A DNA stretch of 64,000 bases from Polytrichum commune (taxonomy: Eukaryota; Streptophyta; Polytrichopsida; Polytrichales; Polytrichaceae), in assembly GCA_950295325.1 (NCBI GenBank), contig OX485808.1, positions 21,722,527 through 21,786,526 of the forward strand. Direction: 5' to 3'. The notes beneath the pieces were generated by a model. That model ran no database searches and was not told the origin of the DNA. It was given only the letters and a program-made list of their open reading frames with translations. Position 1 is the stretch's first letter; the number at the start of each line of letters is the position of its first letter. Shown here piece by piece: positions 16,301-54,259 of the stretch. A program made the position numbers and the translations under genes.

Positions 16301-17820
16301 TGTGCTATAGTGACTCTCATAATTGAGTTAGTACTCGCTACTTCAATTTGCACACACAATGCCATGCGAATAAAAACATGAACATACAAACTTTCACTTA
16401 TGTAAGTTAATAGTCATAGTATAGTGCATCATTTCCAAAGTCTTGTGTTTATTGCAAAACTACAAATGGAGAAATAGTGATTTGAAGAGAATTATATACA
16501 TTGACTCAGTTTTGTAACCTACATCTACCTTTGATCAATAATTTGTCCACCCTCCTTTTAGAAGCTAAAACAACTTGGGTACAATTGGGCATGCTATGAT
16601 AGAACTTTGGGCATTGCTCAAGAGTGATGGAATGGAAAAGAGTTTGCACATGCTCTCATAATTGAAGCATTCCTTTGGTTGGTGTTGGATATTCATTTAA
16701 TTTCCAAATCACTAGTGCTTACACATGCTTCATTCAAGTGATTGAGGAGACCAAGTAAGTACATAAAAAATTTGCATTGACAATGCTACTGGACTAATTT
16801 GGCAATATGTTTAGAATCATTTTTATGTCAAAACATGACCAAAAAGGGTTGAATCAATACCATTCAATTATCTCCGTGACCCCATATTGAAGAATGATAA
16901 GATACAAAGCTTGTATCATCTTCCCCAATATCTTGCACATAATAACCCATGCCATGAAAAGTCATACAACCCCACACACAAAAATGCACCACCTCCATGT
17001 TGAATTATTTGACTCACATGACGAGCTTGTGATTGAGATTCTCCATCCTTCACCCAACACCGAGAACGACCATCAGACTAAAATCAATTGATCTTAGTCT
17101 CATCCCAAAAAACACTCTATACCAATCATGGATAGTCCAGTCTTGATGACATTGAGCATATTCCAACATGCGACGCGCATTTTTGGTTGTGAGCAACAAC
17201 TACTTCTACTTCTCAGATGACCCAAGACTTGCTTCATGAAGTGCACATCTCATTGTGTTGGTTCTCAATACCATATTTAAAGTGCTCACTCAAAGCATTC
17301 ATCGCATCTACAACATTATCTAGTTCACCAATTGTGATAGCTCTTACACATGTTCATTGTTGAGTAGGGGTGATGCTTCTTTGGCGCCCTCTTCTTGAAG
17401 GCTCCACATGAGGAACACACTCTCCACAAATCCTAGAGCATGTAGATTGAGAGATATACCTAACAATTTTTGGCACTTCGCATGTGCTACGCACACCCAT
17501 GGTGCAACAAGGCTTTAGCATTCAACCTCGTCTCCTTTGGTAATGATCTCATGGCAAAGAAAACCTTCACAATTATAAGAGATAGATAGATAGAAACTCC
17601 GGTCCCTTTTAAGGGGGGCCGGCGTGAATAAAGTGTCCGTTCGTAATGCCAATGACCCGATGCCCACAGGACAAGGGGACATTGGGACAAAACTACTCTC
17701 CCCTTTCGAGGATGGACACTATAGTAGCCAGGAGAACAAATACGGTGACCCATCATATCTTTTAATCAGTAGTAATGTTTGTGTTGCCGCATAAGATGTG
17801 ATGTTTTTGTGTTGGTGATC
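16301..17820. other. Intergenic stretch, no gene recognised
   Basis: The frames at 16,894-17,091 and 17,487-17,756 have no recognisable domain or splice context. A short TAGA repeat lies near 17,580. I see nothing else that can be named. Confidence 0.4.
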
Positions 17821-17828
17821 GCTAAGTC

Positions 17829-18021
17829 ACGATTCCTTGGTTGGTTGAAGGAGGATGTTAGCATTAAGACGTTCCGGGTTCGATTCCCGTTGGGTCCGTC
17901 CGAACGTTTAATGTGTAGTACGTGGTTTAGTTCTGCTAGTGGTTAATAGGCAGGAAATTTGTACCAACCAACCGGCACCTACCCATCTTCCTGAGCTAAT
18001 GGTGTTTATTATAAATAAAGG
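17829..18021 (+). mobile_element. tRNA-derived SINE
   Basis: GGTTCGATTCC at 17,877-17,887 is a perfect Pol III B box. It is preceded at tRNA-like distance by an A-box-like TTGGTTGGTTGAAGGAGG and surrounded by a T-arm-like CGGG...CCCG. The acceptor stem cannot be closed, so this is not a functional tRNA gene. About 110 bp of unrelated body follows and ends in ATAAATAAAGGTCTTC and a T-rich tail. That tail abuts the A-rich 3' end of the large retrotransposon, which lies on the opposite strand. Confidence 0.55.
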
Positions 18022-18698
18022 TCTTCATTTTTTTATTATTTTATTTTATTTTTTTATTTAAAAAATAAATAAAGTTGTTGGGATTGTATTCATTGGTCAT
18101 TAGGTATTGTTTGGTTATTCTCTATTCTCCTTTTGTGTAGTAAGATTGACCCGGCATGTTGGATGGCTGATGTGTTAATTGATTCGAATGTGTTTTTGAA
18201 GGCGTTTTCTGGTAGTTGGAATGTTGTTATGAGTTGGTTCATTGAGGGGGCATGCGTTGTACCTCTAGCTCCAGCCGTGATAACAATAATCGGATCTACT
18301 TTCCAACCTTGTTGTCTGATTTTATCGATTAGTGGCTGGTATTTTTGGACTTTATTGTTTATGGTGCCTTGGGAGAATCTGTCATTAGTATATGTGAACT
18401 CGATAAATTATACAGTGAGGTGGTCTGTTGGGTTTGACGGAGGGGTGCTTTGGTATGGCATTCCTTTAATACATAGTATGTCGGGTTTAAGCCGAGCATT
18501 GCAATGACACCTTTGTTGAACACATATGCAGGGTAGTAGCCATGAAGGAACTGTGTTTTCTTGTGGGTTATTGTTGAAGGTTCCTGCATTCATAAGAATA
18601 TAGCATCTAGATTTTTGTGCAGATAATATTAGCTTTCTTATTTCCCGTACTGCTTTATTGTGTCTTTTGATTCTAAGGGCGTGTATATGGTGTTGATT

Positions 18699-18755
18699 GC
18701 ACTTTAGGAGTACATGTAGCCATGTATCTGCGTCGGGGGAGTTACAAATTGGGCA
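18699..18755 (-). other. C-terminal zinc-knuckle motif of ORF2
   Basis: C-x2-C-x9-H-x4-C within CPICNSPDADTWLHVLLKC, followed by a basic helix. Such Cys/His motifs near the C terminus of ORF2 are typical of non-LTR elements and are thought to bind RNA or DNA during target-primed reverse transcription. Confidence 0.7.
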
Positions 18756-19111
18756 TGTTATCGATGGGAATCTTTGTATGCCAAAAAATAGTTGTTTTCG
18801 AGCATTACCCATATATTGGCCAGTGCGGAATTTTAGAAGGGTTGTTTTTTGTGGGTCTGTTATCGTCGGATTAGACTAGAATTTGTTGGATAATTCATTG
18901 TCTATTTGGAAATGTTCGGGAATCTTTGTGCCATTATTTCTAGATTTTTTTCTCGGTCGTGTTTTTGGATGTATGTTTCCAGGCATCTAATTGGGCCTTT
19001 GTCTGGTCTTTTTGTTGGTCCTGGCCATATGTCTTTATGGAAGTAGTAGGGGGTGGTATGTGCAAACTCGTGTGGTTTTGAGGCAAACTTGTATAACTTT
19101 TTAGTGCCGGT

Positions 19112-19528
19112 TTTTGCGAGTGCATCTGCTTGTTCGTTCCCCTTGATGTTGATATGGGCTTTGACTTTATAGATGGTGGTTGGTTGTGTACGTTTTTGTA
19201 ACATTTCTACCATTTCTGCCAGTATAGTTTTGTCGGCGTGGTTGTTGTGATGTGTTGGATGTTTTATTTGTGTGTTGATTACATATAGGCAATTAAGGCA
19301 GTCCGTGAAGATGTGGGCCGGTTCGTGTGAGTATTTAGTAGTAATTATTCTTAGTGTTTTGTGTATGGCCATTAGTTTAGCTCTAAAGCTGGTTTGTAGG
19401 CCGGATAGTCTTTTTGATATTTGTATATCTGGTTTTGTTGGGTTATATATTCCGTAACCTGCTTTTTCTTTTTTCCAGTGTCCCTCTCTGTCTTTTTTAG
19501 GTGGGATGAAGGAGCCATCGGTGTAGTA
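19112..19528 (-). other. RNase H domain of ORF2, catalytic Glu replaced by Lys
   Basis: YYTDGSF (19,508-19,528) is the first catalytic Asp strand, IFTDCLNCLYVI the second Asp, and VKAHINIKGNEQADALAK the C-terminal His/Asp motif. The expected Glu in the R-A-E-L helix is Lys here (FRAKLMAI, codon AAA at 19,376-19,378), a single G-to-A change on the sense strand. The domain is otherwise typical of LINE RNase H and lies 3' of RT. Confidence 0.8.
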
Positions 19529-19768
19529 GCTATATTGAGGTGGGAATTTTGGTGTAGTATTTATTTCAAAGTTTGGTATGGGTGGTGTGTGTGTATTTGA
19601 TTTATCGTTATGTGGTGGATATGATATAGTATTCTATTTGGTACTTTTGTTTACATGTGTGTTGGGGGGTGTGGGCTGGGCTTTTTGTATGTAGTATTGT
19701 GTTATTTGCAAGTTGTCAATAGTTGTTTTAAGTGTGTTTATTTGGGTGTTTGTGCCAAAGTTGTAGTT

Positions 19769-20161
19769 TTGGTGGTGAATGCATAGTATGTGAATGGCTA
19801 GTGGTTCTATTATTGGTTTAGGTGTACCTTGGGGGGTTGTTGGTTCATCGTATGTGATGGTATCTGCGGCGAAATGGGCAATGACATGTGTATCCGCGAA
19901 TGGTCCATTGTGTGGTGTTTTGTTTTGGTACCAGTTAGTGTCTGGTATGACTAGTAGGGTGATGGTGGATGGGTCGTGTTTGGCTGCTAGTCTTGCCCAG
20001 TGTATTGCTTGGTGGGCCATCTCTTCGTTGTGAGGATGTGCATATCCTATTCCTTTCCATTTGTATTGTAGGGCTGTACCAAGTGATCCAAATATTTTAT
20101 CTCTAGTGTGAGGTGAATAAAATTGTGATATTTTGGTAGAGCATGTTATTGGTGATGAGAA
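19769..20161 (-). other. Candidate Dam/PCIF1-like N6-adenine methyltransferase-fold segment
   Basis: Residues about 380-510 of the 554-codon open stretch 21,298-19,634. The pattern FSSPIT...YSPHTRDKIFGS, then WKGIGYAHPHNEEMAHQAIHWA and TITLLVIPDTNWYQN, resembles Dam-type and PCIF1-type adenine methyltransferases. Those carry a D/N-PP-Y/F motif after a W-x-G or FGS-type strand, then a helix and a hydrophobic LLxP-xxxW strand. Here the catalytic position reads AHPHN rather than NPPY/F, so activity is doubtful or the resemblance is only structural. Dam-like domains are known from DIRS-type retroelements. The lack of internal stops in this 554-codon stretch suggests recent constraint. The assignment is an inference from pattern only. 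Confidence 0.4.
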
Positions 20162-22030
20162 GTAGGAGTTTGTGATGTTAAATGTTGTTGTGATGAAGTC
20201 TAGTAGATTAGTTGGGATAATGTGGTGTGACGTTTTAAGGGGGTCCTTTTTATGGGTTTTGTTCTTGTATCTTTGATAAAGCCATACTATTTCCGTTTCG
20301 AAGGGCTGTATAGTGGGTACTAGGTTTTGTATATTATAGGCGTATTTGTGGTATTGTTGCCAAAGCCATTTTAGCCTAGTGGTTGGGATGGTAGTTAGGT
20401 ATCTTCCAGTATCTTCGTAGATATGCGTTTCTTCGTTGTTGGTTTGTATAGTATTTTTTGTGGTAAGTATGTCTTTTTCGGGGTTACATTCGGTTATGTT
20501 GATGTGGGTATGTGGTATTGTTAGTGATGGGGGTATAAATCTGGTATCCCTATTTTGTGCGGGGATGAAGTGTACATCTAAGATGTTTTTATAGTATTTG
20601 TGTTGATATTTTGTGTAATATATAGTTAGTAGATTGGTGTTGTGTGTTATTACTAGTGGTAGATTGAATGGGAAGAGTTCTCTTTGTGGTATCCATTTGT
20701 AATATGTTGTGTGGTTTTGTAATGTCCATTGGCATAGATATGTATTGTAATTTTTTGTAATTTTATATTTGTCTTTAGTTTCTTTTAGTTTGTGGTCTAT
20801 TATGGCTTGTATTGGGAATTTGTTTGGGTTGTTTGTGATATTGGAGGGTGGGTGTGGTTGTTGGTTTCGTTGTGGTGTTGGTGGGTGTAATGGTCTTTCA
20901 ATTGTTCTTGGGTGTAATTCTCTATTTTCCGATATGTATTGTGCTTTGAGTGTCCGGTTTTGTGTGTGGTTGGGACATGGGGTGGGGCAGTTTTGGTTGC
21001 ACACTTCATTGCAGAACAGTTGTGTTGCAATGTTTAATGCACTTATTTCTAGTTTAGTTGGGGTTTTATAATATATTTTGAAGTCTTCTACTGTCATTAG
21101 GTTTGTACCATTGGGGAGGGAGATTTGTTTGATTGTATGTATATTGAGTGTTAGAAGTTTATGTAGTAATTTAAGGGATAGCTTGGGGTTTAGGTTTGGT
21201 AGTTCGTTTGTGGTTCTCCATTCACGTTCTAGTTCGGTTTTGTTGAGGTGGAAATCTGCTTCTATGCTTTTAAGATGGGCCCCACCTTCTGTTTTCATAA
21301 GGAATAATGTTATGGTGGTTGGTGATCTAATACAGTCTTGGTATTTTATTCTAGGTATGTCTTTTGCACCTCCATGTTTGGATAGTATATGTTGTACAAG
21401 TCCTTTATATATTATACCTAGTCTTCCTTTATCGTTTAAAGCATTTCTAAGTTATTCGCTGATACATCTAAGGTAGGCGTTTTTTAGTGAGAAGGCTTTT
21501 AAACCAAATAGGTCATGTGGTAATTGTGTTATTACATTTGCGGTGCATTTTGGTAGCCCACATATTGCTTTTTGGATTCCGATGATTTTCTTATCTAATT
21601 TTTTAATAGTAGGTAGTGAGTAGGGTACTGCGTAGAAGCTGTAAGCTATGCCAGCTCTGATAACGGTGTCTATCATTTTGATTTTCTGTTTGATTGTTGC
21701 CGGGCAGTGGATTAGTTGTTTACATTGATTTATTACTTTAGTTGTGGTGATGTGTGTTTGGAGTTGCCATTTTAGTGATGGTACTAGTTGAATGCCTAAA
21801 TATACGTATGGTTCATTTTGATGTAGTATAGGAAGTGGTTCGTTTCTGTATGTAATGTTTTGGTCTTGAATTTTTGCTTTGAATGTATTTGGTTTTAAGT
21901 TTGATTTGTTAGGGCAGCTTGTAATGGCACATTTTGGGACGCCTAGGTCCATTCATGCCCATTCACAGTATTTGTCTAGTTTATTTAGTTGGGTTTGTAT
22001 TTATTGGAGTTTGTTTGTGATAACTGCTAA

Positions 22031-22566
22031 GTCATCCGCATATGCTGCGGAGCTTATGGTTTGTTTAGACGTACCGAACGTGTATCCATTTCTACCTCTT
22101 TGTAGCCATCTTAGTAATGGTTCTAGGAATATTAGGAATAAGTAGGGACTGAGTGTGTCTCCTTGTATGGTTCCTCTTTGTATAGGTATTTGTTTCGTTC
22201 TACCAAAGTGTTCTCCCGTGAATATGGTGTTAGAGTGTGAGTAGATGTTCCATATAAGTGTTATTGCATTCTCTGGATATCCTAAGTCTTTTATTACGGC
22301 GAGGAGTCTTGCATGGTCAAGGGATCCGAATGCATTTTTTAAATCTATATATAATATATATATATATATATGTCTTGGTTTGTGTATCTTGCATCTTCCA
22401 GCGTGGTTATGAGAAGCTGGAGTTGTCTGGAAGTGCTCATTTCTGCCCGGAATCCTTCTTGGCTATCATGTAGAATTTGGTGTTTTTCACCGTATGCCGA
22501 TAGTATAGATGTTAGTGTACTAGTGAAGAATTTGTATATTGTGTTTGCGAGGGCTATTGGTCTGTG
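22031..22566 (-). other. Reverse transcriptase core, interrupted by (TA)n
   Basis: RT motifs run in order from HRPIALANTIYKFF (starting at 22,566) through QEGFR and motif A (YIDLKNAFGS, 22,350-22,321) to motif B (QGDTLSPYLF) and YADD at 22,031-22,042. All catalytic aspartates are present. The upstream part is in one frame, and motif A onward is in another. The switch falls exactly on the TATATA stretch at 22,345-22,371, where the reading becomes DIYIYIYYI and a stop. Confidence 0.85.
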
Positions 22567-25075
22567 ATTTGTTAGGTGTGAGGGGTCACTTTTTTTGTAT
22601 AAGAGTATGGTTAGACTTATTTTCCATGATGCTGGGATTTGTTGTTGTTTATAACAATGGGAGAAGAATAGAAAGAGTAATTTATGGAAATCTTCCGGCA
22701 TGTTTTTTAGGATTTTATTGGGAATTTTGTCGGGGCCGGGTACTTTATTATTTGCTAGGTTCTTTAGGCATATGTCATATGTTGCTTTGTCGAAGTATGT
22801 ATGTAGTGGAGTTTGTGGGTCCCCTCTTTTATTTAAGACTAGTCCTTCTAGATCGTGCCATGGGTATTGTCTTACCCCACATGTGCAGTTTACTATGTGC
22901 TCAGGTTGTTGGTAGCATGTAGGTACTGTGGGGCTGTTGCTGCTTGATTGTTGGATGTGTATTTCGTTGGCTATGTCTAGGGGGTTTGTGAGTATATTGT
23001 TATATCTGTCCGTAATGCAATCTAGGGGCGGTGTTTCTTGGTTGTTGAAGACTTTCTTGTGTATTCTTTTTGGGTTTTGTTCGTATAGCTGTTTATATTT
23101 GGATATGGCTTTTCTAATACAATCTCTGGTGTATTTTGTGGTAATTGTTCGGGCGAGGGTATTTGCTATTTTAGCAATTGACGCTATCTTGATGAGCCAT
23201 TCTTGTTGTAGAGGTTCGTGATTTGGGAGGGGTGGTATGTTGGCATGTTTATGGTTTATAAGTTGCTCTATTATGGGGTGTGTTTGCCATTGCATGATGT
23301 GTTTTGCTATGTAAATTGTTTTTCTAATTAGGTGATATGTGGAGAGATGTTTTTTCCATTGTTTTTGGATTTTTCTAGGCAGGAATCCACCCTGTTGTGA
23401 TGTTTGGTTTGTTAGTGTAGGAAGGGGGGGGTGCGTTACAAGTTGTTTGTATTTTGTTTGAGATTTCTTGTACTAGTTGTTCTAGTTGTATGCATGCTAT
23501 TTGCCATTGGTTGGTGTCTAGTTGGTCCTTTAATAAGGTGTTCGTAAGTTCATTTATTTGTATTGCGTTTTCCTCGTAGAATTCCGTTTTGAGTTTTTCG
23601 ATGTTTTCTTGTGGAATGGGGTTTAGGATTCTATTTGTTTTGGTTGTTACTGGAGGGGATTGGCGGGCTAAGAGGGTGTTTGGTGGTATGTGCAGGGATA
23701 CTGGTGAATGATCCGAATTTAGGTTATGGTCGTTGTTTGTGCTTGATGTGTAAAGATTGATGTTAGGTGATTTGATATAGTATCCATCTATGAGGCTTGT
23801 TTGTGTGTAGTTTTGGCCTCCTTGTCTAGAGTACGTGCTGTTTGTTGGGATGTATGTAAGTTGTATGGATTCTGTAAATGCTCTCCATTCTATGTCTTCT
23901 TGTTGTGGGGGTGTGGTATTATTGTCACTTTGTCGGCCTATTAGGGCTATGTCTATGTTAAAGTCGCCGCACAAAATGCATATATGGTTTGGATGTGTTA
24001 CCATTTGTTGTGCTATATTTTGTTTTATTGTTGGTATATGTCTGGTGTCTTCGGTATGTGTGGGCATATACATATTCATTATTAACCATGATTGTTGTGG
24101 TTGATTTTTTAACGTGATTATTTGTAAGTAAGGTGAAATGTCTATTGGGGTTGGGATTTTGGTAATGTTTCCTGGGTATGCGTAGTCTTTATCTATGATT
24201 GTGAGCAGTCCGCCTCTTGGTGGTGTATATTGTCGCCTTTGTTACACGCAGTTGGTTAATGTGTGTGTGTTGTTAAATATTAATTTATGTTTTGGAAAAA
24301 GATTTTGTATATATTTTGTGGATTTAGTAGCAGTTAGTTTGGTTTCCTGTATTGTAATAATTGCTGGTTTAAGTGTTAGGAGTTGGTGTATGTTCGGGAG
24401 GGCTGTATTTAGGGATGCGGCATTCCAGGTGGTGATGTGTGTTTGGTGGGTTGTTATATGGGTGTTATGGGTGTCTGGTACAGGTCTGGTAGGGGGAGGC
24501 GGGGGGTGTGAGTATTCCTTTATTGGTTCTTTATGTTTTAGTGTTTCTTTAAGTAGGTTCTCGGGTAGGAATGGGAATTTGTTTGTTAAGATGTCTAAGG
24601 TAATGTTTTGGTTATTTGCTTCTATGAAGTTGTATATTTCTTTATGTATGGAGTTGGGCGGGTTGATAAGGTTTTGGTTATTTTGTGTGAATAATGTGTA
24701 TGGATGTGTGTTGTGAATGTGTCTTTCAGGGGGATTTTGTAGGAGCGTCATTCGTTCCAATAGTGATGTTGTCCAGTCAGGAGTTGGTGTTTGAATTAGT
24801 AGGTGGTCACATGTTTCTAATGATGGGCTGATGGTAGTGATGAGTGCGTATAACATTCGAGGTGGTGGGTGGTGTTGGTTTTGATGTATGTAGTTTAAAA
24901 GATGCGGATATTGTGCTATTGTGTTTTGGTGTCCTGGGTGTGTCAAGTTTATGGTAGGAGCGAATTTTTTGGCTAGATGTTGATATTCTGGTTGTAGCTT
25001 GATTGTGCTTGGTATAAAGTACATTTTACATCTATTTTTGTGTGGGGGTGGGTGAGTTTGTAGTAAGTTTGGCAT

Positions 25076-25117
25076 GGGCCCTGGGTTGGATTCAATGTCC
25101 CCGCTTAACATAAGTAG
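25076..25117 (-). other. 2A-like ribosome-skipping motif at the ORF2 N terminus
   Basis: Residues 50-63 of the frame starting at 25,264 read LLMLSGDIESNPGP. This matches the 2A consensus D(V/I)ExNPG|P, with the hydrophobic LxLSG upstream that active 2A sequences show. Skipping would fall between Gly62 and Pro63 and release a 62-residue basic leader. 2A-like sequences at the N terminus of ORF2 are established for several animal and trypanosome non-LTR elements; in a plant element they would be unusual. The motif is intact, although the ORF downstream is broken. Confidence 0.8.
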
Positions 25118-25684
25118 GAATTGAGTTGAGTGCATTTTATTATTGGCTTTCTTTTGTTTATAGTTTTTTCTTTTTGTATGGGTTTTGGTTTTATGTGTTT
25201 TTTTTGAGTTAGTGTGTTGTTGTTGTTGTTTTTTTTTTCTTATTTTTGTTGAGTATAAGGGCATGTTTTTAATGTGATTATTATTTTTTACTTGGTATTG
25301 TGTTAGGTTAGTATGCCAAGTTTGGTTGAGATTTTTACTTGGGGTTATTATTATTTTATTATTTTTATGGTTTATGTGAGTGTTTATTTGGTTTGGGTTA
25401 TATTCTTGATTTTCGGAGGATTTTAGGGGGGTTATGGAGTGAATATTTGTGTGTGTTTTTGTATTGGTTTTTTTGTTTTTATATTGTATGGGTAGGTATG
25501 TTAGGTATTTTTTGGAGTAAGGTGTTTTTCTTTTGTGTGTTTTTAGTGTTCTTATATTGTTTGTTACTTTTTTTTTCTTTTTTTTTGAATAAGTGTTGTG
25601 TTATTTGAGTTTATGTGTTGTGATTTATTTTTTATTGTTAATGTTGATATTTTAGATATTTTATATCTTTTTTGTCTTTTTTTT

Positions 25685-25708
25685 GGGCGAGGCCGGTAGG
25701 CCGAGCCC
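25685..25708. other. GC-rich hairpin in an AT-rich setting
   Basis: GGGC-GA-GGCC-GGTA-GGCC-GA-GCCC is an almost symmetric stem of two 4-bp GC helices separated by tandem G/A mismatches and a four-base loop. It lies in sequence otherwise poor in C on this strand, upstream of ORF2 in the sense direction. Its role is unknown. Confidence 0.45.
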
Positions 25709-26698
25709 GTTTGAGGTTTGTTTGGTTTGGTTTTTTAATTCTTTTTGTTATCCTTTTGAGTTTTGTTTGTTGTGGGTTGTGGTGTTTGTTTTGAATTGAT
25801 TTGAAAATAGTTTTGATGGGTTGGTTGATTTGTATTAGTTTTTTTTGGGTTTGTTCTTGTGTTTGTAGGTGTTGGGTTTCTTCTTCTTTCTTTATTATTT
25901 TTATTTTTATTTTTATTTTTTTGGTTTGTGTTTGTTTTAGGAGGTTTATTTGTTTGGTGTTTTTTTTGTTTTTTGGAAGTGATATATTATTTTTGTATGT
26001 CATGTTTGGATTTTGGTTTATTAGATATTTTGTTTTAATTTTGTATTTTGGCATGGGATGTTGGCTATGTTTAGTGTGGTAATATGATGTGTTATGGAGG
26101 GCTTTGTTTTGTGATTTATAGTGCCTAGTTTTATGTTTGGTAGTTTTGGTAGTGTTATATGTAGGGGTTTTATAATTGGTTATGTCTTTAGGTGTGGTTT
26201 TTGTTGTGTACTTGGTATTTGGTTGTGTGTTAGTATGGTTAAGTTTTGTATATGTTTTGTTTGTTTTTTGGTTTTGATGAGGTGGATGTTTGTCTTTTTT
26301 GGTGGTAGACTTATTGTGCGTGGGTGTAATTGTGGGGAGGGTCTTTGGTGCGGTATTTTGTTGAGTATAGGGTATGGTATTAGTGGGTTTTTGAGTTTTT
26401 TTTTATATCATGATTTCTTTTTTGTAGAATGTGTGTTGTATGTGTAGAGCAAAGGGGATATTTTTATTGATAATTTGACAAAGGATACATGTTCTCATAA
26501 GAGATGACGTAGATAAACTAGTAAAGTTTTTTTGGTAGAGTATGGCATCCGTCTTCCTATAGGATGCTAACAAGTATAAAGTATGAGCAATATACTTGTT
26601 TTTATCTAGAACACAACATTGATAAGACTTAATACATGATTTATGATGCGGTACTAAGTAAGAGCAATTGGGTTGAGCAATGGGTTTGTTTGTAGCTA

Positions 26699-29116
26699 CT
26701 AGTTTGGTTGTTGACTAGATGGATCGGAGGAGGGGAGGGTGGGTCGCACAAGGTTCTTCACCACTTGCATGCTTTGACCTAGTACTTGCTCAAGGTTTGC
26801 GAGGGCACTTTGGAGTTCAAAGTTGATTTGGTCGGCGTAGTTCTTGGCTTCGGTGCGTACATCCGTTCGGAGTGCTGTCATGTCGGATTTGAATTCCGTT
26901 CTTAGTTTGTCATTCTCCTTTGAAACGACGTCTTGCACAAGTGTTGCAATGTCATTCTTGTTGATGGGAGGTTGGCTTGGGCCGGGTGCATTCTTCAATG
27001 CCTCAATTGTGTCGGCTAAGGCGTTGTTGACGTCCGTGAATCCAAGTTTCTTCAATGTGGCATCGTCCGGCTGTGCACTTCCATCAAGTGAGTTTGGGTG
27101 AGGATGGAACACCACCCATTTGTTTTGAAGTCTTACCGATTTTTTCAAGTGTTGCTTGTACACCACCGAGTTCAAGCATTCCACATTTGCTATTCCATGA
27201 TGGATTCTACCTGTTGCTCTAGGGTAGAATACTGATACAATGTTCTTTGTACCAAAGTGTGCATGTAAACTAGCGGTAGTTGGCTCAATGAGTTTGGTGA
27301 GGTTGAGACCTTTGGCAAGTAAGACTAAGCAATTACGGCGAATAACATCATCATGAGTAAGTTGATCACCTGAGGAGATCACCGGGGTGAGGAGTTCGCC
27401 GAGGATGGGTATTTTGTTGCGGCCAATTTTCTCAACTTGCTCCGGCGATGTTGTGATGAGCCATCCATATGCTTCCCCCGCCGTTTTTTGCACTTGTGTG
27501 AGTTCAAATTCGTGGCCTCGCTTGAAGCTCTCTTCGACAATTGCTTTGAAGAGTTGGTGAGCTACAAGGTCACGGATGTTGTCCGTGTTGATCTTGATTG
27601 TTAGCAAGTTGCTTGAGGCGAGGGGGTCGAATGATTTGGCAATTTTGGCGACGGTGAGGGTGTCATTATCCAATGTGATGGCAAAGATTCTCCCTCCTCT
27701 CAAAAGGGCCATAGCATCCTTGCTTGGGTGTTTGAGATGTACTTTGGCCAATCCCGACCATACTCTAGTTGTTTTAGGACCATGGCATAACACAGCTATT
27801 GGTTCTCCTATAAGGTCCCCTAGTTGAATTTCCATGTTTTGAAAGCGTGTCAATAGTTTCTTCATGATTTGATCTTGGCTAAAGGGAGTAGTGGGTTTTT
27901 CGAAGTGGAGTAGGATATGGTAATCCAATGAGAGGTAGGTCTTGGGGTTTACCTCAATGTCAAATGGTAGTTGTGTAATGTTGACGTGTTGACCTTCTAT
28001 GCCATCCGGTCGCGTTGTAGGCCAAAGCTTTTGTTGTACCCGGGGGAATGACATGCTTGCCGAGTGTAACTCGGCCGCTTCACTTGCAACATATCCTGAT
28101 GCTATGAGCTCATCAATTGGTGTAGTGATGGAGATGGGGGGCAAGCCGGCCTCCTGCGCAATGGTTTCCATGGTCGGGTATCCATACCAAAATTCTATTT
28201 GAGATGGGTCTCGGTAAAGGGATATGATGGTGTTGCTCTTGTTCCTCTTGTGTGATGTTTTGGTGGGGTTCGGGGAGGTCTGTTTGCTATTGGGTGTTAT
28301 GTCCTCCATTACCACCTCAGTGGTGGTGTTGGAGCTGTGGTGACGAGCATTGGATTTTGCGGTTGTGACCATGCTGCTTGACCTGCGGTGCCAACAAAAG
28401 TGAGTTAAGTGTGTAATTTCGGGATATATGTGAGGTATGCTTGGTTTCGGAGCTAGTTTTGGGAGTTGGCATGTGGGTGGAGCTGGAATGAGTTTTTGTC
28501 TATACTGTGGTTCGGGACTCTTGGCAATGTGTGCAGGGGCCCTCCTGGAAGCATATGGCCCCCAGGCATTACGCGGGTTGCACAGATTGCTCAAGGTGTT
28601 TGAGTGGTTAGTGCATATGTAGAGGAATTTTGAATTGAAAACATTGAAATTGGGGGAGTACATACCTGGATGGTTGGTGCCGAATAGGTGCCGAATTGGT
28701 GGGGTCGGAGTCGCTTGCTGGGGGGTGTGAATGTCGAGGCTGCTCTGCAAATTCTTGAGGCTGGGTGGATTGACACTGCAAGGATTCGGTGGTGGGTGGC
28801 CTTGTCGTTGTGCTGCGCAATTCACCTTGTGAGTCGGTGCAGTGCTGCTTCCGACTCCGGCTTGTGTTTCGGCGCTGGGGTGCGGGGTGCGGCTGCCTCC
28901 AGCCGGTGCGGGGTTGTGTTGTGCTTCGGTGTTGAAGTGCAGCCTGTTGGTGGGGGTGTCTGTGTGCTTCTTCCTTCTATTGCGGGCAGAGAATGCCAGT
29001 CCAATGGCTTCGGCTCTCGTGAGTCTGTCTGTGTTCTTCGACTTTTGGTGGTGCGGTTGGGCTATTGCCCGGGTTGCGAGGTATCTTCGAGGAAGTATGT
29101 GGACTACCGAGCTCAC
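26699..29116 (-). CDS. ORF1-like protein, C-terminal coiled coil, likely start at 28,372
   Basis: The open frame is 805 codons. A strong intron signal (donor at 28,675, acceptor at 28,383) lies in its N-terminal part and would not keep that part in frame. The likelier start is therefore ATG 28,372 (MVTTAKSNARHH), giving 557 residues with a spliced 5' UTR. Visible features are a basic Ser/Thr/Asn-rich N terminus, a central alpha/beta region (IVSVFYPR ... NKWVVFHPHP, which could be an RRM-like or other RNA-binding fold) and a C-terminal heptad-like helix from about NDIATLVQDVV to the end. That layout fits a retrotransposon ORF1 chaperone, and the frame lies 5' of ORF2 on the same strand. Against it, the gap to ORF2 is 1.4 kb and base composition changes near 26,450. 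No exact family was recognised. Confidence 0.6.
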   Translation of the reverse strand: MSSVVHILPRRYLATRAIAQPHHQKSKNTDRLTRAEAIGLAFSARNRRKKHTDTPTNRLHFNTEAQHNPAPAGGSRTPHPSAETQAGVGSSTAPTHKVNCAAQRQGHPPPNPCSVNPPSLKNLQSSLDIHTPQQATPTPPIRHLFGTNHPGMYSPNFNVFNSKFLYICTNHSNTLSNLCNPRNAWGPYASRRAPAHIAKSPEPQYRQKLIPAPPTCQLPKLAPKPSIPHIYPEITHLTHFCWHRRSSSMVTTAKSNARHHSSNTTTEVVMEDITPNSKQTSPNPTKTSHKRNKSNTIISLYRDPSQIEFWYGYPTMETIAQEAGLPPISITTPIDELIASGYVASEAAELHSASMSFPRVQQKLWPTTRPDGIEGQHVNITQLPFDIEVNPKTYLSLDYHILLHFEKPTTPFSQDQIMKKLLTRFQNMEIQLGDLIGEPIAVLCHGPKTTRVWSGLAKVHLKHPSKDAMALLRGGRIFAITLDNDTLTVAKIAKSFDPLASSNLLTIKINTDNIRDLVAHQLFKAIVEESFKRGHEFELTQVQKTAGEAYGWLITTSPEQVEKIGRNKIPILGELLTPVISSGDQLTHDDVIRRNCLVLLAKGLNLTKLIEPTTASLHAHFGTKNIVSVFYPRATGRIHHGIANVECLNSVVYKQHLKKSVRLQNKWVVFHPHPNSLDGSAQPDDATLKKLGFTDVNNALADTIEALKNAPGPSQPPINKNDIATLVQDVVSKENDKLRTEFKSDMTALRTDVRTEAKNYADQINFELQSALANLEQVLGQSMQVVKNLVRPTLPSSDPSSQQPN

Positions 29117-29930
29117 TCCGTGGGTGTTTGTGCCTTCAATTTGACTGTCTATGTGCCACTTTTTGTGTGCTACCGAAGTGGGTTTCGGTGCCGGAGTTGC
29201 TGGGGCGTGGGCTATTGATCTGTCTTCTCCGCCTTCCGCGTTGTGTCAGTGTCTGTGTGTTGCTGCACTGGGCTTTGGTGTGAGCGTTGCTGGGGCGTGG
29301 GTTGTTGATCTGTTTTCGCCTTCTTTCGTGATGTGCCAATGCCTGTGTGCTGCCGAAATGGGTTTCAGTGTCGGAGGTGTTGTGCATGGCGATTCGGGGA
29401 GGGTGGTGGGAGTCTTTGGTTGCCGATGGTGTCTGTGTTCGGCGAAGTCTCGGTGAAGGGGATTTGTGAGTGTCGGTGTTGTGTTGCGACCCGGTGGCGG
29501 GAATGCTCCCTGCGTTGCTCTCGCAATGTTGGTAGCTATGGAGTGCAGTAGCGACGATTGAGTGTCGAAATAGTAACAGGAGTTGTAGCTGGTCAGAGCT
29601 TGCTTGGGCGAAGATCTGTAACTTGCTATCTCGGAGTTCGAGTACCTTCTGATTGCCGGCCCAGCGTGCTCAGTATCTGGCGATCTCAGATCCAACAGGT
29701 ACCAGATCTACTTTCAGATATGCGAGGACTCCGTTGTTTCAAGTTATCGATCTATGACCAAACTGCTTGTGACCTTGCTACAAATGGTGGTACATCATTG
29801 CATGTCTGCAATGTTGCCGAGTATTCACCACAGACGCCCAGCCATACTCGTCTCTGCCTGTTCTTTGTCGACACTCGTGTTCGCTACCGGCTAGAGCTTA
29901 CGCCATCCGAACTCCTCTGTCCGATCCTGT
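28676..29930 (-). promoter_or_regulatory. GC-rich 5' leader of the ORF1-like unit with 90-bp tandem monomers
   Basis: An island richer in G and C than its surroundings. Units starting at 29,165, 29,255 and 29,345 align with a 90-bp period (GTGTGCTACCG / GTGTGTTGCTG / GTGTGCTGCCG, then GTTGCTGGGGCGTGGG and TTGATCTG). Tandem monomers upstream of ORF1 recall the promoter monomers of some LINEs. Short frames on either strand here have no recognisable domain. Confidence 0.5.
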
Positions 29931-31153
29931 GAGCATCACTTTATAAGAGATAATCTCCTAAGAGACCACACTATTATCTAGAAGTAAGAGGAAGAACCCT
30001 AGGCAAAGCTCTGAACTTAATTTTGCAATTCAAGGTTATGAAAAAAGTTCCAAAACTGAGTCGATAGACCTAAGTTCATTTGAAATGCAACTTCTCTCTT
30101 GTTGCTACAATACTCAAGCTGAAATTTGGAAAGATGATAACTAGTTTTGGTTGCGAATTTCATCCAATTTATGGTTTGGAAAAAAATATCAACACTCTTC
30201 TAGATATGGCTTCCCAATATTTGTTGTTTTGATGATTGGCTCAATTTTAAGAGTTAGTGTATCACCTACACTATTATATGGTGAATCATGTGGCGGGCCA
30301 CACTAAAAAATACATGGGATCATACTTGGGGTGCACACTATTCACCAACTTACATTGTATAACATTGGAAGACCCAAGAAAGAAATCTTGTTATCTTTTT
30401 CAAATCTTTCCCATTTCTCAATAAATAAGCATGCTATTTTATAGAACTTCTTGTGCTCTAATTAAGACACCAAGATCGTCTCGAAACTCTTAGCCATTTA
30501 AGCATGGTGATCGTTCAAAGATCAATTGCATATACCTCAAGAAACGCATGCATCTTGCTTTTTATGCTTTCTCCCTCAATTCTTGAACTTAGGAAGCTTA
30601 TCTTATGCTCTTTGAATTCATATTCTCAATGACTTTCATTTTATACCTTACCCACAACTATGTAACGTAGTCTTTTTATCCATACGAGTGTATCAATTGT
30701 CAACATGAGGCTATTTGTCAATCTTGGTAACTTTGGAATTGAGTGATTTTTCTCATTTTGATATTTGATATAAAGAGTGAGAAACAAGGAGTGAATCAAG
30801 AAGTGAGGTGGACCCTATTTTGATAGTTTGATGACCTCAAGATCATAACAAGGAATGACAAATAATGTTGGGTTAACATTTAGTGTTGGTGACACTAAAT
30901 ATCATATTTATTGTGCTAAGGCCTTTAAGCGAGTGGGTAAAAGGTAGGAGAGTGCAGGTAATAAGCACGGTGATAGGGGGAGATTCGCCATAGCCAGTTG
31001 TGCGAGGCTCAGAAACCCTAACGAAGAGAGAACAGAAGCGAAGAGACGAGACAAGCGAAGGGAAGAGAACAGGAGGGAGAGAAGGTGGGATCGACAGACA
31101 AACAGACAGACAAACAGGGATCAGGTATCACAGCAAGAGGAGCAGGAGCAACG
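29931..31153. other. Intergenic stretch upstream of NDUFA8
   Basis: AT-rich sequence with no gene. At 30,878-30,900 is a small palindrome (ATTTAGTGT, 5-base spacer, ACACTAAAT) that resembles the ends of the MITEs at 15.4-16.3 kb. A similar one (TGTAGTGTC-ACC-GACACTACA) is at 45,745-45,765. GA-rich sequence from 31,020 to 31,110 is probably the NDUFA8 5' UTR. Confidence 0.45.
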
Positions 31154-52840: not shown

Positions 52841-54259
52841 ATGCATCGACGGAAGCCGCAACCGCGGGCTCCGAGCAATCACACCGCTCTCGTTTTGTTA
52901 CCAAATGTCAATGACATCGTAACGCCCGCATCAGGCTCCGGAGCCCACTCAAATTCGTCCATCAGCAAGAGGAAATTCTTAAATCTCTACACTTCGACTG
53001 TCAAGAAAACTAGGGTTAGGGCTACGAGCAAGCGTCCTCGACGAGATGGAGCAACGGATTCAGGAAGCAATGGTGATGGTGACGAGAAGCTGTTACAGAA
53101 GATTGAAGTAGTTGATCAAGGTACAGATGGTAAGCCTGACGAGCCTATTACGGTTACTGCAGGGGGTTTGGCCTCTTATGATGTGCAACAAATCCATGAA
53201 AGCAATTCAGTCGATTTGTAAATCTCGAATGAATCCAATGCCATAAGAATGAGATTATGGTGACTAAACCTCAAATTTTAAAGTGAAGATATGCAGTCTT
53301 CTTAAATGATTATATATGCGTGGCTGAAGTGGTTAGTGTTGAGTGGGCGTTGAGCATTGACATTTTGGGAATCCCAATCTATCCGCCGTCGTATTAATCC
53401 CTAAATAATACTAGAAGTGTTCATTTTAGGGGAATGTTGAACCATTTTGCGCCCAAGAGTAGATGTGGCCGAATGTGGCCGAATGCTGGTGTTTGAATTA
53501 AGACCTGTCTACATTAATGCAGAGGCATGCCTGGAGCAGAGCTCTGAGGAGTGGAGTATGCCAACAGACACGAAAATTGCACTGGAGTTGATGTGTTCGC
53601 AGTTCCCGAAATTGGAGAAGGCTAATGTGAGGCCATTCGTGTTGAGGTCCCAGCTGTACAGTAGCGTCAGCGACCGGACACTTGTAGACAGAGAGCTGGA
53701 GGGTTTGAAATTACAACAGGTGGTTCGGTTATTTAAGCTCAATACTGGCCAAGACGACTATGCTGTCATGTTTATGGCTGATTACCTTGCGCAGATTGAA
53801 TCAGGCAGAAAGAGGCTGGCCTTGAAACAGTCAGAAGACGAGATGGCGGTTTTTGACTGGTTTACAAAGCATGTGATTCCTTCTCATGTGGATGCGGGCA
53901 TCACGAATGAGAAGTTAGTAAGTCTCTTGTCTGAAGGAGGTGAGGTCAAGGATAGCCATATCTCACTCCTAATGAATGCAGGGATCTTGACACGGCAGCT
54001 GGTTGATGCAACTGCTTATTGGTTTGCAATCCCAAATGTTGGGTTTCTGCTGAAGAGTGTAACAAATGGGCGGAAGGAGATCTTATCATTTTTGGCAAGG
54101 CGTAAGTACAGAGAAATCCTGCAGGTTCCTCTTGAAAGACGAAAGTTGCAATATTCTGTGCTTGGTATGCGGTTTCACATCCGTGATCTCTTAGGCTCGG
54201 GCCACATTCACGTCATTCCCTCTCCATCTGGCCCTTTGGTGCGCCTCACTCGTGACTGA
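52841..54259 (+). CDS. STK19: STK19 homolog (winged-helix nuclear protein), 2 exons
   Basis: Related to human STK19. That protein was long listed as a kinase but is now described as a DNA-binding winged-helix protein that helps transcription-coupled nucleotide excision repair. Exon 1 52841-53129 (donor GTAAGC; a GTACAG donor 9 bp earlier would also keep frame) and exon 2 53523-54259 give 341 residues. The C-terminal 245 residues carry the family blocks RPFVLRSQLYSSVSDRT, FKLNTGQDDYAVMFM, KDSHISLLMNAGILTRQ, YWFAIPNVGFLLKS and MRFHIRDLLGSGHI. Residues about 40-70 are very basic (SKRKFLNL ... TSKRPRRDG), a probable nuclear-localisation and DNA-contact region. No kinase motifs (no VAIK, HRD or DFG) are present. 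Confidence 0.92.

Follow-up and report, generated by a model that had tools for sequence, protein, structure and literature searches.

Whether a plant retrotransposon can use a 2A (StopGo) ribosome-skipping signal at the start of its main enzyme is the question raised by a 64,000-nucleotide stretch of the genome of the moss Polytrichum commune (contig OX485808.1, positions 21,722,527 to 21,786,526), hereafter the window, to which all coordinates refer. A preliminary description of the locus had placed the motif LSGDIESNPGP at the N terminus of the second open reading frame (ORF2) of a non-long terminal repeat (non-LTR) retrotransposon. The motif is real, being encoded on the minus strand in an ORF of 340 amino acids (aa; 24242-25264) that shares the frame of the endonuclease ORF, and its last residue lies 63 residues after the first ATG of that ORF. 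Our comparison of copies across the genome makes it likely that the window holds a broken copy of a large land-plant non-LTR family that uses 2A at the ORF2 start. The two features at issue are:

25076-25108, minus strand: 2A-like motif LSGDIESNPGP, with the predicted skip between Gly and Pro at 25079/25078
25079-25264, minus strand: basic leader of 62 residues, running from the first ATG through the Gly of NPG, under weak constraint in the window's group of copies

A degenerate DNA pattern for the core, whose second codon also admits Met, matched the 407.8-Mb genome exactly at 273 places (143 + 130), and its reversed control matched none (0 + 0). Of the 56 listed cores on contig C1, 38 were tied to ORF2 N-terminal matches or had a PCIF1-like domain 3.5-7.5 kb behind them, leaving 18 untied; four of these 18 and two cores on C2 were opened, and all six adjoin ORF2 homology. 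The preliminary description had asked whether relatives conserve the core, and they do. Among 107 copies, comprising 100 N-terminal pieces drawn from 110 further matches, six longer loci and the window (one piece, L028, was read by eye), NPGP was kept in 94 and the full D(V/I)ExNPGP in 77. The 13 losses of NPGP were NLGP (five), NPRP (two), HPGP (two), NPGS (one), a stop within the core (one) and no recognisable core (two). The copies were collected with a query that contains the 2A, but the 277 residues that follow it supply most of each score, which probably keeps the bias on the NPGP count small. NPGP is present in each of the 17 copies whose frame reaches 1300 aa or more, some of them near-identical, compared with 77 of the 90 with shorter frames (Fisher p 0.12).

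Conservation is concentrated on particular residues. In 104 aligned copies, entropy was 0-0.28 bits at G, D, I, N, P, G and P, 1.72 bits at the free x, and 0.79 bits at the E position, where E occurs 88 times, K 11 times, H four times and a stop once. The ratio of nonsynonymous to synonymous substitution (dN/dS), obtained from Nei-Gojobori counts over non-independent pairs with no multiple-hit correction, was 0.11 for the core in group A (49 copies) and 0.12 in group B (47 copies); for the residues after the core it was 0.30 and 0.16, respectively. The 2A segment occurs in the types LLLLSGDIETNPGP and ELLKCGDIEPNPGP, and the residues from its final Pro onward are PMPN or PMPD in most copies.

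The residues upstream of the core can be compared with those of viral signals. According to the available text of a 2026 survey of viral StopGo sequences (PMC12846837), leucine-rich upstream motifs ending in (A/S/C)G precede D at position p12 and matter for activity; E14Q is partly active and D12N and N16H are modestly active, and E14K is absent from the main text. In 102 moss copies, the commonest six residues before the octapeptide were ELLKCG (22), LLLLSG (10), ALLQCG (9) and LLLLCG (7), with G at p11 in 101 and [ASC]G in 88. The upstream context, as read from sequence, fits StopGo as that survey describes it, with [ASC]G before D at p12 and LLLLSG-like hexapeptides. The moss signal differs from the viral ones in its setting, a plant retrotransposon; the available text of the survey reports no natural use by plant viruses.

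The leaders before this shared motif are far less uniform. Group A leaders, the window's included, have dN/dS of 0.65-0.95, compared with 0.65-1.61 in shifted frames. The preliminary description had suggested that skipping would release a 62-residue Lys/Gln-rich peptide as a separate RNA-binding product, and such a product does not appear as a conserved one: the group A leader is hardly constrained and the group B leader is unrelated to it, no link between the two being found at E 1e-4 although both precede the same 2A. Within group B, dN/dS is 0.16 from -14 to 0, 0.56 and 0.46 out to -50, and 0.77-0.91 beyond, and we therefore take about 50 leader residues to be translated and constrained in that group. 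Translation of the stretch before the 2A is thus supported by selection in group B and weakly in group A. In 33 of 106 copies no in-frame Met precedes the core, either in the sequence read or as far back as the nearest upstream stop, and the start site may therefore vary or lie further up.

A third group, C, carries two or three tandem 2A motifs at eight of the nine loci examined. Many of these motifs read YYTWNNSxxILLxGDIxxNPGP; in several of them E is replaced by Q, H or K, or GDI by GAI, and L108 has a stop codon between its tandem motifs. The numbers of 2A motifs in the group C stretches are:

L005: 3
L107: 3
L108: 3
L109: 2
L110: 3
L111: 2
L112: 2
L113: 2
L114: 1

The element that bears the motif is larger than first described. 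The assignment to non-LTR retrotransposons stands, but the extent given at first, 18022-25264, does not, the copy actually running from about 17580 to 29940. The order of endonuclease, reverse transcriptase (RT), RNase H and zinc knuckle, all on the minus strand, also holds, the knuckle being probably part of a C-terminal nuclease (below). The earlier domain inventory was incomplete, having missed both an upstream ORF1 and a PCIF1-like domain situated between RT and RNase H. The features of the copy are:

17580-29940, minus strand: full extent of the broken non-LTR retrotransposon copy, about 12.4 kb
17573-17583, plus strand: downstream copy of the target-site duplication, TTATAAGAGAT, its final four bases overlapping the tail
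29941-29951, plus strand: upstream copy of the target-site duplication, TTATAAGAGAT, identical over 11 bases with 17573-17583
17580-17623, minus strand: 3' end with a GC-rich hairpin and a (CTAT)n tail, like those of L001, L002, L003, L004 and L006
18080-18780, minus strand: C-terminal region resembling CCHC plus restriction-like endonuclease (RLE), with RHN, KPD, IEFTY and KY; read from motifs, limits approximate
18699-18755, minus strand: CCHC motif CPICNSPDADTWLHVLLKC, in ORF 18408-18875
18902-19633, minus strand: RNase H region (PF00075, E 7.5e-8 on 18902-19372)
19943-20338, minus strand: PCIF1-like domain, of a cap methyltransferase family (PF12237, E 1.7e-9), with HPH where NPPF is expected
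21700-22700, minus strand: RT region (YADD), interrupted, homologous to the RVT_1 region of L001; limits approximate
23375-24480, minus strand: apurinic/apyrimidinic endonuclease (APE) region (PF14529, E 1.3e-6 on 23375-24079), with QETK in ORF 24242-25264; limits approximate
25686-25704, minus strand: conserved GC-rich motif TCGGCCTACCGGCCTCGCC, a potential hairpin
26699-29116, minus strand: ORF1, 805 aa

The window copy is interrupted, its ORF2 being split among eight segments between stops, each 150 aa or longer, and its RT is spread over ORFs 22345-23472, 22001-22462 and 21452-21952, with YADD and the neighbouring motifs still readable. In the relative L001 a single frame matches Pfam families in the order Exo_endo_phos (E 1.3e-5, just over the Pfam cut-off), RVT_1 (3.8e-27), PCIF1_WW (2.8e-12) and RNase H (1.5e-14); L003 has the same order, with its endonuclease below the cut-off. 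In the window copy the PF14529 match exceeds its cut-off. RNase H is present in ORF2 of the long-frame relatives (PF00075, E 1.5e-14 and 5e-13).

ORF1 is itself repeated, with at least 57 matches in the genome, several of them directly upstream of ORF2 copies; it matched no Pfam family at that family's cut-off, and AlphaFold2 with six alignment rows gave no usable model (predicted local distance difference test score, pLDDT, 43.4). In a subfamily represented by L117 the ORF1 frame, which starts with the short tandem repeats NKHRRHNSEKETNNFAD, stays open over at least 1792 codons. In L109 (2-3100), one open frame covers the C-terminal portion of ORF1, a pair of 2A motifs and the ORF2 start, an arrangement that we take to be chance; we rejected a constant frameshift linking ORF1 to ORF2, as the frame relation varies among the copies compared. 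The GC-rich motif TCGGCCTACCGGCCTCGCC was found in 84 of the 100 N-terminal pieces (at most three mismatches), is read in different frames across groups, and occasionally occurs twice, about 300 bases apart, and may be an RNA or DNA element. Covariation for its hairpin is weak, many group B copies having a disrupted outer stem; we therefore claim the conserved motif alone. An Rfam scan of 17500-30500 gave a single match, far below its gathering score.

The boundaries of the copy are supported by the repeats around it. Other matches to the upstream flank stop at query positions 107-110 in 36 of 39 cases, corresponding to plus-strand 29944-29941, and the 3' ends of relatives fall at query positions 199-215, mostly 201, which is plus-strand 17580. 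None of the 40 upstream-flank matches covers the first 490 bases of the element, except the window itself. The element sits inside another dispersed repeat (17330-17579 and 29941-30050), and at 13 places an upstream-flank match recurs beside a downstream-flank match, most pairs overlapping by about 7-11 bases. Such places, where the halves are contiguous, represent the repeat without the insertion, and we therefore regard the copy as genuinely inserted, its target being duplicated over roughly 7-11 bases. Elsewhere in the genome, copy pairs at C1:70164442/70183448 (19 kb apart) and C3:10652513/10736346 (84 kb apart) have equal score and frame length, as if locally duplicated. Outside the element, the window also contains an exon of an Stk19 gene (53441-54259; PF10494, E 9.8e-29).

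A second, shorter family appears to share the 3' end of this long interspersed nuclear element (LINE). Loci L146-L151, which resemble a short interspersed nuclear element (SINE), carry the last 145 or so bases of the LINE (17580-17725) at 94-97% identity. With the best 40 of 1893 candidates scored, 37 of the 39 other matches begin at the identical base, and in five of the six loci a common head with tRNA-like A and B boxes, recognised by eye, precedes the shared 3' part; ARAGORN found no tRNA in these loci. The family appears to be a partner SINE that was mobilised recently, comparable to those of Chlamydomonas RandI, whose microsatellite tails and partner SINEs are described in the available text of PMC3747384.

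Where the element belongs among LINEs depends on both ends of ORF2. Its RT profile scored 105.8 bits with R2 and 62.9 bits with the ORF2 protein of L1, and a single-sequence RT search did not find L1 at E 0.01. At the C terminus, CCHC, RHN, PD, IEFTY and KY are invariant in the five rows of our alignment and are kept in a subfamily only about 41% identical (two loci). This set of motifs resembles that of the R2-type endonuclease, and the zinc knuckle of the window is probably part of such an RLE. A profile search with the C-terminal region found no solved R2 chain and no Pfam family matched; its PD-to-E spacing is about 26 residues, the usual spacing in PD-(D/E)XK endonucleases being 12-14. 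Pfam scans of ORF2 detected no cysteine protease, a domain that Dualen has. The group Dualen/RandI is described as combining an APE with a PD-(D/E)XK-like endonuclease (PMC3636483, in the part available), and since this combination marks the group we call the element Dualen/RandI-like, not a proven member. Besides an APE before the RT and an RNase H, the element has a C terminus that reads as RLE-like, a tail of (CTAT)n and, probably, a partner SINE, which together suggest this affinity. The host sets it apart, as the available text of PMC4438587 lists Dualen/RandI from green algae alone and the host here is a land plant.

A review (PMC9033089, available text) recognises only L1 and RTE among plant LINEs; the present element resembles these in being a non-LTR retrotransposon with APE and RT, and its RNase H recalls that of some plant L1 elements, the domain being reported in both Dualen/RandI and some plant L1 in the accessible part of PMC4640811. 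It is unlike the plant L1 clade in that its RT is nearer R2 and its tail is (CTAT)n instead of poly(A); flowering-plant L1 tails are mostly (A)n and RTE tails are TTG-type repeats, according to the portion available of PMC3747384.

In L1Tc of trypanosomes and in animal elements, the 2A stands at the N terminus. The moss element is like these 2A-bearing APE-type LINEs in having the core in frame with an APE-RT protein, and unlike them in its land-plant host, separate ORF1, tandem 2As, and PCIF1-like and RLE-like parts. The existence of 2A-bearing non-LTR retrotransposons is documented in the available text of PMC4981915 and PMC11512398. Our literature search found no report of 2A in plant LINEs, which does not establish its absence from print, and neither an RT scan of viral contigs nor a tblastn search of phages with the ORF2 N-terminal piece gave a match.

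The PCIF1-like domain is repeated in the genome. Its PCIF1_WW match in L001 is accompanied across the genome by 698 candidate places, of which the best 150 were scored and all 150 exceeded the Pfam cut-off; a profile of 22 copies matched solved PCIF1 weakly (E 0.003 and 0.023). The catalytic motif of PCIF1 is NPPF. None of the 22 rows has NPP[FYW], and the position that we tentatively read as equivalent holds HPH in 19, HPY in two and HPP in one; methylation by the usual motif is therefore unlikely. AlphaFold2 with these 22 rows gave no usable model (pLDDT 43.8). A literature search found no report of a PCIF1 domain in retrotransposons, which again does not establish absence from print. A more far-reaching proposal, which we offer tentatively as possible rather than probable, is that the element is a land-plant LINE of Dualen/RandI type, possibly with two endonucleases, in which 2A serves as start-site-independent trimming and a captured PCIF1-like domain, its catalytic motif lost, may bind capped RNA or polymerase. 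Trimming by 2A would explain why the leaders change quickly while the motif after them stays fixed, and why 2As occur in tandem.

In the mechanism that we consider likely, ribosomes entering the ORF2 frame would translate the leader and come to a halt at NPG while the exit tunnel holds the leucine-containing stretch. The ribosome would then let the leader go and resume at Pro, and the ORF2 protein (APE, RT, PCIF1-like domain, RNase H and CCHC/RLE-like region) would always begin with a near-identical Pro-Met-Pro-Asn/Asp. The main ORF2 enzyme is probably released during its synthesis in the moss by this predicted skipping; 2A is active in plant cells, according to the available text of PMC11512398. 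Because the 2A abuts the conserved ORF2 while the leaders differ between large groups, a fixed ORF2 N terminus is the simplest reading, and we think that the benefit lies in this uniform N terminus, whatever the start site or leader, and not in a useful leader peptide. Several observations weigh against this account. Only 53 of the 102 copies have at least three aliphatic residues at p6-p9. NPGP showed no association with long frames by Fisher tests (p 0.12-0.59), and a rank test was weak (p 0.042). The Glu of ExNPGP is replaced by K in 11 of 106 anchored copies and by H in four; the K variants include the long-frame L002, L004 and L006, which exceed 99% mutual identity, and a recently spread subfamily therefore bears the K variant, which counts against strict necessity. 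Two relatives have HPGP in common. Where the frame is 1800 aa or longer, the canonical octapeptide occurs in only three of eight copies, compared with 74 of 99 below that length (Fisher p 0.038), with no difference at 1000 and 1300 aa (p 0.47 and 0.56).

The leaders furnish a further objection, and with it the alternative that the released peptide is itself the useful product, for example a basic RNA-binding peptide. Group A leaders are indeed basic, the last 50 leader residues of group B are constrained (0.16-0.56), and a weak similarity (27-40% identity over parts) links the leaders of groups B and C, which are thus not independent of each other; the leaders of these two groups may therefore serve some function themselves. 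As a general explanation it is nonetheless unlikely, given the near absence of constraint in the window's own type and the missing link between A and B leaders. Substitutions of E by K and H in long-frame copies could also mean that the motif is an inherited piece of the ORF2 N terminus, kept for folding or another reason after skipping was lost. We regard this as quite unlikely: it is mainly the residues required by StopGo that are fixed while x varies, the tandem motifs of group C sit away from the ORF2 start, and the G at p11 and the preference for [ASC]G match functional viral StopGo. It is also conceivable that the hydrophobic stretch and 2A together act as a targeting signal on the unskipped fraction, giving dual targeting in the style of sea-urchin NLR proteins; a leucine-containing stretch does precede the core, and 2A-like signal sequences are described in the available text of PMC4981915, but the stretch is short and group B has ELLK without a long hydrophobic run, which makes such a role very improbable. 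The NAC family belongs to the plant lineage. All 28 NAC-domain exon matches lie on contigs C1-C4, the window lies within a 44.7-Mb contig, and listed copies occur on all seven chromosome-sized contigs (42-78 Mb), whose number suggests n = 7; contamination from an animal or protist, which the preliminary description had named as refuting its view, is therefore very unlikely. The copy moreover interrupts another dispersed repeat of the same genome, and we treat this last alternative as negligible and the land-plant nuclear host as confirmed.

The 2A signal was previously known from viruses, animals and trypanosomes. If skipping occurs as predicted, the family would represent natural StopGo use by a plant in an abundant element, where the available text of the viral survey found none in plant viruses (PMC12846837). 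Many natural 2A variants, with E, K, H or Q at one position, HPGP, or tandem arrays, would then have evolved on plant ribosomes, and could serve in tools for co-expression in plants. LINEs of the Dualen/RandI kind may extend into land plants from the green algae to which the accessible part of PMC4438587 assigns them, and in this family a LINE has gained a PCIF1-like domain.

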